DNA of 64,000 bases from Salinisphaera sp. T31B1 (GTDB taxonomy: Bacteria; Pseudomonadota; Gammaproteobacteria; Nevskiales; Salinisphaeraceae), in the NCBI RefSeq assembly GCF_040361275.1, contig NZ_APNH01000001.1, positions 1 to 64,000 of the forward strand, given 5' to 3'. Position numbers and translations under genes: made by a program. This document shows, one piece after another, positions 59 to 24,234 of this stretch. Position 1 is the first letter of the stretch; every line of letters begins with the position of its first letter. The notes under the pieces are model-generated. The model did no database searches, was not told the origin of the DNA, and saw only the letters and a program-made list of their open reading frames with translations.

Positions 59-2167
59 TTAGGCCTGTTGATTTCGTGTGAGCGCTTCGACAATGTGCGA
101 TGGCGCTTGTGCATAGCTGTCGAACTGCATGGTGTAGGTTGCACGCCCCTGGCTCATCGAGCGCAGATCGGTCGCGTAACCGAACATCTCCGACAGCGGC
201 ACGGACGCAGACAACTGCTTGCCGGTCGGAATGTCTTCCATGCCCTTCAGGTTGCCGCGACGGCGATTCAGATCGCCCATCACGTCGCCCATGTAGTCTT
301 CGGGCGTCACCACCTCGACATCCATCATCGGCTCAAGCAGAACAGCCGACGCCTTGCGGGCGCCGTCCTTAAATGCCATCGAGCCGGCGATCTTGAACGC
401 GGACTCGTTGGAGTCGACGTCATGATAGGAGCCGTCGTAGAGAGTGACCTTGATATCGACCATCGGATACCCGGCGACCACGCCGTTCTGCATGGCCTCC
501 TGAATGCCCTTATCGACCGCGCCAATGTATTCCTTCGGCACGACGCCGCCCGTAATGGCGTTGACGAACTCGTAGCCCGCGCCGGCCTCTTCCTGCGGCG
601 CGATGCGCAGATAGACATGACCGTACTGACCGCGACCGCCGGACTGACGAACGAACTTGCCTTCCTGTTCGACTTCCTTGCGGATGGTTTCGCGGTAGGC
701 CACCTGAGGCGCACCGACATTGGCTTCGACGCCGAACTCACGCTTCATGCGGTCGACGATGATCTCGAGATGGAGCTCACCCATACCGGAGATGATCGTC
801 TGCGAGGTCTCTTCGTCGGTACGCACACGGAAGGACGGATCCTCCTGCGCGAGCTTCGACAGCGCCACGCCCATCTTCTCCTGGTCGGATTTCGTCTTGG
901 GCTCCACGGCGACGGCGATCACCGGCTCCGGGAACTCCATACGCTCGAGAATGACCTGCGAATCCGGGGCGCACAGCGTATAGCCGGTCGTAACGTTCTT
1001 GAGTCCCACGACCGCGGCGATATCGCCAGCGCGGATTTCCTTGATCTCTTCACGGGTGTTGGAGTGCATCTGCAACAGACGGCCGACGCGCTCCTTCTTG
1101 TTCTCGATCGGGTTGTACACCGCGTCACCCGACGACAGCACGCCGGAGTAGACACGAATGAACGACAGCGAACCGACGAACGGGTCCGTGGCGATCTTGA
1201 ACACCAGAGCCGCAAAAGGCTCTTCGTCACTCGCGCCGCGCTCGATCGCCTTGTCCGGATCGTTGGCATCAACGCCCTTGATCGCCGGCACTTCGGTCGG
1301 CGCGGGCAGATAATCGATGACCGCGTCGAGCATCGCCTGCACGCCTTTGTTCTTGAAGGCCGTGCCACAGATAGTCAGCGTGATCTCGTTGTTGATCGTA
1401 CGCTTGCGCAGACCCGCCTTGATCTCGTCGGTGGTCAGCTCACCGTTCTCGAGGTACTTCTCCATGAGCTCTTCGTCGGCTTCCGCCGCGGCTTCGATCA
1501 TTTCTTCGCGGTACTTCTCCGCGTCGGCCTGAAGATGCTCGGGGATGTCACGCGCCTCGAACGTCCGGCCCGCATCCTCTTCATTCCAGTAGATCGCCTG
1601 CATGCGAATCAGGTCGACCACGCCTTCGAATTCGTCTTCGGCGCCGATCGGCAGCTGGATCGTGATGGGCGTGGACGCCAGACGCGTACGCATCATTTCC
1701 AGACAGCGCCAGTAGTCGGCACCCAGCTTGTCCATCTTGTTGACGAACACGATCCGCGGCACGTGGTACTTGTTCGCCTGGCGCCACACCGTTTCAGTCT
1801 GCGGCTCGACGCCAGCGTTGGCGTCAAGCACGCACACCGCACCGTCGAGCACGCGCAGACTACGTTCGACCTCGATGGTGAAGTCGACGTGGCCGGGAGT
1901 ATCGATGATGTTGATCCGGTATTGCTCCGGATACTGTTGCTCCATACCCTGCCAGAAACAGGTGGTCGCGGCAGACGTGATGGTGATGCCGCGCTCCTGC
2001 TCCTGGGCCATCCAATCCATCACGGCGGCGCCGTCGTGCACTTCGCCCATCTTGTGGGAAATGCCCGTGTAGTACAGGACGCGTTCGGTCGTGGTCGTCT
2101 TGCCGGCATCGATATGCGCCATGATGCCGATGTTGCGATAACGCTCGAGGGGGTGTTTGCGGGCCAT
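59..2167 (-). CDS. fusA: Elongation factor G
   Basis: Translocation GTPase of 702 residues, the usual length for bacterial EF-G. The P-loop [13 protein letters not shown] lies at residues 17-29, the switch II DTPGH at 89-93 and the guanine-specificity NKMD at 143-146. It moves tRNA and mRNA through the ribosome after peptide transfer and, with RRF, recycles ribosomes. It sits between rpsG (56-base gap) and tufA (12-base gap) and is expected to be cotranscribed from the rpsL promoter. Nothing about the protein looks unusual. A long open frame on the opposite strand (11-2440) is a shadow of its GC-rich codons. Confidence 0.98.
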
Positions 2168-7556: not shown

Positions 7557-11639
<4,083 letters not shown>

Positions 11640-16797: not shown

Positions 16798-16872
<75 letters not shown>

Positions 16873-16904: not shown

Positions 16905-16978
<74 letters not shown>

Positions 16979-17091
16979 GCTGTCAACCGCTTAATTCTCG
17001 CCACACCCGGCGCTGCCTCGAAGAGCGCTGCCTGGGGTGGCGATGCACCCGCAAAACCGTGCCTATGCAAAGCCGCTCACGAGAACGCTCC

Positions 17092-17235
17092 AGGGAGGAG
17101 GATCATTCGGCGCTGCCGCCTCGTCGAACCCCTGTCGGCTCGGACACCTCCTACAACCCTCACGTACTCAAAACCGCCTGATGAAGCCGCTCGAATCTTG
17201 CGAGTTTCAGATTTTATGGTGGAGGGAGGAGGATT
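17092..17235 (-). repeat. Degenerate repeats of the tRNA-Tyr 3' end, rtT-like
   Basis: Between tRNA-Tyr and tRNA-Gly lie 418 bases without a gene. At 17216-17235 there is an exact 20-base copy of 17396-17415, which is the last 19 nt of tRNA-Tyr plus one base, 180 bases away. A shorter copy starts at 17092. The two downstream units also share a second block (17303-17335 and 17119-17152) that differs by four transitions and one inserted base. On the transcribed strand that block folds as CGAACC-N6-GGTTCG in one unit and CGAGCC-N6-GGTTCG in the other. The layout resembles the E. coli tyrT repeats that give rtT RNA. The remainder of 16979-17091 shows nothing recognisable. Confidence 0.8.
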
Positions 17236-17396
17236 ATTCGACGCTTCGCGTCTCACCCTGCGGGCCGGTCGCGTACCGCGACCCTTCTCGGTCGCTTCGC
17301 GCCCTCGTCGAACCTCTATCGGTTCGAACCCTCCTCGGTCCGGCTTTTCACTCGCCGCGACCACCAGTCCTTATCTTCCTGCTGCGATGTATCAAA

Positions 17397-17481
17397 TGGT
17401 GGAGGGAGGAGGATTCGAACCTCCGAAGGCTGAGCCGACAGATTTACAGTCTGTTCCCTTTGACCGCTTGGGTATCCCTCC
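17397..17481 (-). tRNA. tRNA-Tyr (anticodon GTA)
   Basis: An 85-base class II tRNA with a long variable arm. The acceptor stem is GGAGGGA/TCCCTCC, the anticodon stem ACAGA/TCTGT around loop CTGTAAA, the T-arm GGAGGTTCGAATCCTCC, and CCA is encoded. The anticodon GTA reads UAC and UAU. It is the first gene after the promoter at 17497-17525 and leads the tRNA-Tyr, tRNA-Gly, tRNA-Thr, tufB unit. Confidence 0.98.
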
Positions 17482-24158: not shown

Positions 24159-24234
24159 TGGAGCCGGCGACAGGAGTCGAACCCGCGACCTACTGATTAC
24201 AAATCAGTTGCTCTACCAACTGAGCTACGCCGGC
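24159..24234 (-). tRNA. tRNA-Thr (anticodon TGT)
   Basis: A 76-base cloverleaf with acceptor stem GCCGGCG/CGCCGGC, anticodon stem ACTGA/TCAGT around loop TTTGTAA, T-arm GCGGGTTCGACTCCTGT and encoded CCA. The anticodon TGT reads ACA and ACG. It matches thrU of E. coli, which is adjacent to tyrU. Here it is 6.7 kb away, with the fds cluster in between. It starts 45 bases after coaX and may share its transcript. Confidence 0.97.

Follow-up and report, generated by a model that had tools for sequence, protein, structure and literature searches.

We found that the tRNA-Tyr gene in the window, a 64,000-nucleotide stretch of DNA from Salinisphaera sp. T31B1, is followed by an element that, judged from its sequence, is an rtT element of the RF00391 family. 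The same anatomy recurs at tRNAs for ten amino acids (nine with exact tails) and at one tmRNA; the genomes concerned are gammaproteobacteria and members of a single family that lies outside the window's class. These findings raise the general question of why an element behind a tRNA carries that tRNA's tail. The element is best explained as a transcribed trailer that would be matured like a tRNA 3' end; its conservation relative to the spacer, its matched tail and the 3' end of E. coli RttR argue for this reading, to which we give slightly better than even chances.

The original prediction had likened the region to rtT on the basis of its repeats. A covariance search with the Rfam RtT model (RF00391) matched positions 17217-17350 on the minus strand with a score of 64.4 bits (E 1.2e-11, model positions 1-130 of 130), above the curated gathering cut-off of 45 bits. 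This region, referred to here as unit 1, comprises a closing strand, hairpins and a copy of the tRNA tail with a CCA end, as delineated by the RF00391 match and the fold. The source of the copied tail is tRNA-Tyr(gta), which ARAGORN placed at 17397-17481 on the minus strand (Rfam tRNA, 60.7 bits). As had been claimed, the last 19 nt of this gene, including the CCA, recur exactly at 17217-17235, and base 17216 is also common to both, so that 20 nt (17216-17235, minus strand) are identical. The identity runs 16 nt upward from the discriminator and 4 nt onward from the start of the CCA, and the CCA of the copy ends 180 bp past the CCA of tRNA-Tyr; an exact 20-nt match at such a short distance is not due to chance. 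Both the position of the element, just downstream of tRNA-Tyr on the same strand, and its 20 exact bases at 180 bp agree with the description of RtT, a repeat of about 178 bp with the last 19 bp of the tRNA.

Read along the minus strand, unit 1 contains the upstream strand GAGGAGGGTTCGAACC at 17321-17336, which was delineated by sequence reading, the fold and complement tests; it is complementary (with one G-U pair) to the tRNA-Tyr 3' arm and partly also to the tail copy. In the fold, it is followed by a hairpin, CGAACC/GGTTCG, at 17309-17326, which contains the T-arm-like strand GGTTCGA. Next come the hairpin GCCC(GCA)GGGT at 17255-17265, which includes a G-U base pair, and the last hairpin GACGC(GAA)GCGTC at 17240-17252, whose stem varies among relatives by paired changes. 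The CCC(GNA)GGG form was the most regular hairpin of the rtT family. The fold of unit 1 on the tRNA strand was clearly better than that of dinucleotide shuffles (z -3.96, with 0 of 200 shuffles as good), and on the opposite strand the z-score was -2.29, with 5 of 200 shuffles as good.

A second unit is located at 17092-17154 on the minus strand and contains the hairpin CGAGCC/GGTTCG and a truncated tail relic at 17092-17103. The predicted shorter tail copy was indeed found here, 131 bp further on (offsets 177 and 308), with 2 mismatches in 14. The two units share a second block, TTCGAACCGATAGAGGTTCGACGAGG in the first and TCCGAGCCGACAGGGGTTCGACGAGG in the other, which differ by four transitions as counted by eye; the hairpin CGAACC/GGTTCG of unit 1 thereby becomes CGAGCC/GGTTCG with a G-U pair, as originally described. 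Unit 2 folded no better than its shuffles (z -0.05) and had lost the middle hairpins and the CCA end. Of the repeat array initially proposed, only unit 1 is thus intact, and the array in the window amounts to one good unit and one decayed relic.

The location of the element between tRNA-Tyr and tRNA-Gly in the tuf operon, which had also been claimed, was borne out by ARAGORN and by the surrounding frames, whose proteins were named by recognition of their translations. The minus strand carries, in this order, tRNA-Tyr, the element, tRNA-Gly(tcc) at 16905-16978, tRNA-Thr(ggt) at 16798-16872, tuf, tRNA-Trp and ribosomal protein genes. A further gene, tRNA-Thr(tgt), lies at 24159-24234, far from tRNA-Tyr and with genes intervening, and stands directly before tRNA-Tyr in two other genomes of the genus (L012 and L013). 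Three RtT matches were present in the window's genome at E 1, all directly behind tRNAs identified by ARAGORN. The other two were located behind tRNA-Gln(ttg), at 43.2 bits, and tRNA-Arg(cct), at 23.1 bits; both scores were below the cut-off, and each of these elements ended in an exact 14-base copy of its own tRNA's tail. The rtT element is not peculiar to tRNA-Tyr, as these weaker matches in the same genome make evident.

An arginine-rich frame of 95 aa (17077-17364, minus strand) crosses the element, and the original prediction had compared it with the E. coli Tpr frame. A similar frame of 60 aa continues through the element in L012, and part of it is kept in L011. In the other seven of the nine further genomes of the genus, the frame was shifted, shortened or lost through the element, and its starts and ends varied throughout. 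The frame itself is therefore real in the window, but the Tpr-like protein was rejected, as the frame through the element was kept in only one of the nine further genomes; unlike E. coli Tpr, it is not generally conserved in the genus. An element that encodes a small basic protein like Tpr is largely contradicted by these broken frames, and we regard it as extremely improbable.

The distribution of the element was then established across genomes. The comparison of relatives that the original prediction had called for did not reveal random sequence; 14 of the 31 genomes (the window's own included) contained RtT matches at E 0.01, and 10 of these exceeded the cut-off. Within the class, RtT matches at E 0.001 occurred in 66 of 369 genomes, counting the window's genus, and in 56 of 271 genera; 24 of these genomes were over the cut-off. 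In the phylum, matches were found in 47 of 398 genomes, with 30 over the cut-off; 24 of the 47 fall in a single family that is not part of the window's class and that may be Mariprofundaceae, as inferred solely from one Mariprofundus record. Among 14 control genomes, E. coli alone had an RtT match. The named records listed placed the core pattern in at least Escherichia, Enterobacter, Pantoea, Serratia, Yersinia and Photorhabdus, as well as in Alteromonas, Rheinheimera, Marinobacter, Thioalkalivibrio and Salinisphaera. L161, which is labelled Endozoicomonas sp. G2_2, was the nearest among the matches listed, with 86% identity over 3.9 kb of the neighbourhood. Among plasmids, 4 of 72,556 records matched, the best with 74% identity.

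Elements similar to rtT were also found behind tRNAs for Gln, Ser, Arg, Lys, Glu, Pro, Val, Thr and Asp, many of them with scores below the cut-off. In L064, an RtT match at 701-839 (minus strand, 42.6 bits, just below the cut-off) lies behind a tmRNA at 869-1227, and the tail of this element is the tmRNA's own tail. The hosts of 196 distinct first units were Arg in 51 cases, Tyr in 47, Ser in 42, Gln in 39, Lys in 6, Glu in 4, Val, Pro and Thr in 2 each, and Asp in 1. These 196 units are the 201 found minus 5 without the central hairpin motif: the motif is varied in L158, L165 and L170, L110 is built shorter, and L065 is artefactual. All 14 tail bases before the CCA were identical to those of the host in 175 of the 196 units, a fraction that is conditional because a unit had to match the tail with at most two mismatches to be counted. 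The exact copies comprise 56 distinct tails of nine amino acids; the tail of the Asp unit was not exact. As the loci L139-L259 were found by a pattern that fixes AATCC, 3 of the 14 tested tail letters were set by the search there, and the Rfam RtT model likewise favours AUCC. The sequences in all of these counts are related, and they are thus not independent events.

The identity between tail and copy had well-defined borders. All 18 bases including the CCA were identical in 171 of the 196 units, and the base after the CCA agreed in 165 (about 0.46 expected from composition), or in 129 of the 160 units in which the run-on of identity was shorter than 30 bases. In the other direction, 174 of the 175 exact units had an abrupt end of the identity within the T-loop, at 15 or 16 bases above the discriminator. 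In L307, an operon with two tRNA-Ser genes of different tails, each gene is followed by its own tail. A sample from the phylum scan revealed a tRNA and a copy at 18 of 19 loci, with 17 of the 19 units exact. A less conditioned count was obtained from the class-scan Rfam matches, from which further units of arrays, the rows of G000, G003, G013 and G020 and one edge fragment were left out. Of these 101 matches, 70 had a tRNA and a copy with no more than 3 mismatches in 14; the others comprised 10 with a tRNA and no clear copy, 8 at contig edges and 13 for which no tRNA was found. The last group includes L064, which follows the tmRNA, and L048, L083, L095 and L120, which are tRNA-like with the core in the T-loop. 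L095 also contained three tandem RtT matches, 213 bp apart. Within the window's genus, the tRNA-Tyr copies were decayed in L013, L022 and L161 and had one or two mismatches in L012 and L009. A rule by which a cassette stands behind many tRNAs and usually bears its host's tail was not found in the literature searched; neither rtT behind other tRNAs nor tail matching appeared among the matches listed, which consist of titles, abstract starts and passages and include few subscription journals.

The upstream strand was also found to be fitted to the tail. Among 159 units with a locatable GTTYG landmark, the own 12-nt acceptor/T-stem strand fitted the upstream strand better than the mean of other amino acids in 136; this preference was clear for Gln, Tyr, Lys, Glu and Val and weak for Ser and Arg, and Pro and Thr showed none. 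A comparison with different tails of the same amino acid was possible for 149 units with the landmark, and the own tail gave the better fit in 118, the poorer fit in 26 and a tie in 5. It was better in 44 of 44 Tyr units, 35 of 38 Gln units, 4 of 4 Lys units and 24 of 40 Ser units, and there was no effect among the 23 Arg units (11 better, 12 worse). The upstream strand thus tends to complement the tail, clearly for Tyr, Gln and Lys and weakly for Ser, but not for Arg.

We compared the conservation of the element with that of the adjoining spacer in two sets defined by their tails, in which the titled loci (12 of 14 for Arg and 14 of 23 for Tyr) were all enterobacterial. For tRNA-Arg(acg), with 28 units from 14 loci, the mean majority identity was 0.63 in the spacer, 0.90 at unpaired positions inside the element, 0.97 at paired positions and 0.99 in the tail. 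The corresponding values for tRNA-Tyr, with 30 units from 23 loci, were 0.45, 0.80, 0.92 and 0.97. The paired columns were picked by a fold of the same alignment, and the unpaired columns are therefore the fairer comparison with the spacer. Relatives of the window at tRNA-Tyr likewise had an element that is more conserved than the spacer next to it; across 11 rows, taken from the window's genus plus L161 and with L022 and L161 identical, the values were 0.72 for the spacer, 0.83 for the element and 0.87 for the tail. Two-sided Watson-Crick changes were present at 4 of 19 pairs in the Arg set and 5 of 24 pairs in the Tyr set. Conservation above the spacer speaks for function, not for strand.

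The original prediction had taken the G-U change between the two units as an indicator of the transcribed strand, and this argument failed. With the tRNA-strand fold of the two sets, departures to G-U outnumbered those to A-C by 32 to 13 (p 0.007), and with the mirrored fold, on the opposite strand, the counts were 31 and 4. Folds of either strand thus give an equal excess, which comes from the folding method. Core hairpins located without a folding program in 97 units contained 27 G-U, 10 A-C and 1822 Watson-Crick pairs. The next pair outward from these hairpins was G-U in 27 cases and A-C in 14, which are thin counts, and the outer pair of CCC(GNA)GGG was G-T in 26 cases and A-C in 6, in columns where G and T are simply common. 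Core hairpins with nearly pure Watson-Crick pairing and very few G-U pairs count against a plain RNA reading. C(GNA)G triloops, which are notably stable in DNA, cap 137 of the 318 core hairpins. Some other loops hold AGGA or GGGA; CsrA-like GGA loops were considered as a candidate and set aside, as they occur in some hairpins and are absent from the E. coli units that were read. RtT also appears in a passage of a covariation study, where it is used for a tandem GA motif (PMC7657543).

The rtT element is known from E. coli tyrT, where it has an effect on the stringent response. In MG1655, we found four RtT units with scores of 132.9-137.5 bits, one between tyrT and tyrV and three behind tyrV. 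RttR is annotated behind tyrV at 1287066-1287236 (171 nt), and its 3' end falls exactly at the CCA of the tail copy. The match between tyrT and tyrV (L261, 1364-1495, 132.9 bits) carries no annotation in the MG1655 record examined, and two more matches lie behind the annotated RttR. The window element resembles E. coli rtT/RttR in its position behind tRNA-Tyr, its tail repeat, its closing stem and its hairpins. In contrast to tyrT-tyrV, the window contains one good unit and a relic with a lower score, and the element is located between tRNA-Tyr and tRNA-Gly of the tuf operon. Salmonella serovars are reported to have a 175-bp VNTR in rtT (PMC2658671), and in Thioalkalivibrio RtT is reported to be expressed, with upregulation when the temperature is low (PMC8092127).

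The spacers behind E. coli argV, argZ and argQ contain a shorter element with a copy of the tRNA-Arg tail. Like rtT, these elements have their own tRNA-Arg tail, a closing stem such as GGGAGGAT/ATCCTCCC and a GGCCCGAAGGGC hairpin, GAGTAATCC or GAGTCATCC; unlike rtT, they are shorter and lack the GGTTCGA strand. Two of them scored 31.0 and 29.2 bits with the RtT model, below the cut-off, and the element behind argQ in MG1655 gave no match at E 1. No rtT feature is annotated at the tRNA-Arg spacers in two E. coli records. A 186-base query that comprised the tRNA-Arg element and the tRNA end was at least 80% covered in 5212 of 5426 E. coli genomes and had any match in 5375. In strain DX6, four tRNA-Arg genes are evenly spaced at 197-198 bp. 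Between argY and argZ of MG1655 (L262, 1137-1198), the unit is missing exactly between two tail copies and the neighbouring spacers keep theirs; argY is directly followed by the flank that normally comes after the copy, which fits a precise loss between two tails. As E. coli K-12 has units at both tyrTV and argVZQ, the question of the tail is testable there.

These spacers also bear on a purely structural reading, in which the element would keep neighbouring tRNAs apart for processing and would yield no stable product. Elements fill spacers of polycistronic tRNA operons both in the window and among the E. coli tRNA-Arg and tRNA-Tyr genes, as such a reading expects. However, a spacer of this kind does not call for an exact tail copy, the argY-argZ spacer of MG1655 does without an element, and RttR of E. 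coli carries a small-RNA annotation; we consider this reading very unlikely.

In the trailer reading, which we prefer, the folded transcript would be a closed RNA with several hairpins, its 3' strand being the copy of the host tRNA tail, from A58 of the T-loop to the CCA. The trailer would be cut free together with the tRNA, and its CCA end would be trimmed and protected as a tRNA 3' end, yielding a stable RNA like E. coli RttR. Maturation of this kind is suggested because the annotated end of RttR falls at the CCA of the tail copy. The RNA would probably influence how its own tRNA is matured or turned over, and its effect may perhaps reach further. With an exact copy, deletion or expansion between tails would leave the tRNA intact, and units could be lost or multiplied harmlessly. 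A related case is the 3'ETS of leuZ, a tRNA-derived trailer/linker RNA, and rtT RNA would also leave a tRNA transcript; to our knowledge, tRNA-derived trailers such as the leuZ 3'ETS lack a copy of the tRNA tail. Between the tRNA and the element, 53 of the 196 units contained a terminator-like hairpin followed by a T run, compared with 6 of 980 shuffles, and at such loci the trailer would need read-through. None of the 47 tRNA-Tyr units had such a hairpin. These hairpins occur within the first 75 bases after the tRNA and are often bidirectional, as in L016, L046 and L076. The patchy occurrence of the element (66 of 369 genomes of the class) and the presence of similar cores away from tRNAs count against the trailer, as do the weak or missing fit of the upstream strand at Ser, Arg, Pro and Thr and the imperfect tRNA-Tyr copies elsewhere in the window's genus.

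The cores away from tRNAs are the starting point of the main rival, in which the element is a mobile module that is useful in some lineages. In its selfish or neutral form, a REP- or MITE-like hairpin module would settle at GA^ATCC sites; T-loops (TTCGA^ATCC) would be the commonest site and dispersed palindromes (GGA^ATCCA) another, and the tail copy would keep the tRNA whole. Two MAG genomes, G396 and G397, contained REP-like palindromes CGTCATTCCCGCGNAAGCGGGAATCCAG into which the core GAAC-hairpin-GGCCCGNAGGGYGAG-hairpin-GAGTA, or a form of it, is inserted; unlike rtT, these palindromes have neither a tRNA nor a tail copy. The exact pattern of core-bearing palindromes was found in 6 and 7 copies (among them L269, L275, L281, L284 and L287 in G396; L265, L272, L276, L279, L285 and L288 in G397), and empty palindromes were present in 33 and 55 copies with at most two mismatches. 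In 12 of the 13 palindromes, the core stands between GGA and ATCCA, and L278 lacks the left part. RF00391, however, found none of the five dispersed palindrome cores tested at E 0.5, and their kinship with rtT thus rests on motif and position. In the window's genome, the three RtT matches at E 1 all followed tRNAs, unlike the many dispersed intergenic copies of a REP or MITE, and the REP-like palindrome pattern had 0 copies.

The identity of the cores was informative in the same respect. Across genomes, it was 0.671 for the same amino acid and 0.676 for different ones, and within one genome, cores behind tRNAs of different amino acids were 0.736 identical, as would be expected of a core that moves between hosts. 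In the window's genus, by contrast, the cores tracked the tRNA (0.791 for the same amino acid, 0.726 for different ones), as in plain inheritance. Sequences that resemble tRNAs and hold the core in their T-loop (L196, L210, L236, L239 and L245, as well as L048, L083, L095 and L120) would represent insertions, but most of them are explicable by a deletion between two copies of GGTTCGA. In L245, a tRNA-Gln-like 5' part is fused to a tRNA-Ser-like tail, and this requires recombination between units. The almost purely Watson-Crick hairpins of the 97 units also favour a module of this kind, whereas conservation above the spacer in the tRNA-Arg and tRNA-Tyr sets and the coverage of the tRNA-Arg element query across the E. 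coli genomes (at least 80% in 5212 of 5426) speak against a merely selfish or neutral one. We regard such a module as a possible explanation that is nevertheless doubtful. The trailer and mobile readings need not exclude each other. A combined form, which we put forward tentatively, is a portable cassette whose core would move among tRNA and tmRNA genes and some REP-like palindromes, always at GA^ATCC, would gain a tail and often a fitted complement, and would become a tRNA-matured trailer acting on its own tRNA.

The repeat spans the T-loop to the end of the tRNA, which is the usual place for tRNA-directed integrases, and the tail copy could accordingly be a duplicated attachment site that remained after a phage or island had made use of the tRNA. 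In the viral contig L259, an array with the tRNA-Ser tail does lie near a phage integrase gene. Nevertheless, we know of no attachment sites with conserved hairpins or a fitted upstream strand. No integrase gene or island adjoins the repeat in the window, which has tRNAs, tuf and a LysR-type regulator frame around it, all frames being named by recognition. The array of L259 follows a tRNA-Ser 3' half and is interpretable as host DNA next to a prophage. An integration relic therefore appears unlikely, and a phage origin was set aside, as L259, one of three viral contigs, is readable as a host tRNA-Ser array beside a prophage end. In that contig, the array occupies 9680-11060, between a phage portal-like frame (by recognition) and the integrase gene. 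The second viral contig, L258, has three units with a tRNA-Lys-like tail near the end of the stretch, together with a Mu-like transposase and a repressor, and the third, L257, contains a tRNA-Thr unit.
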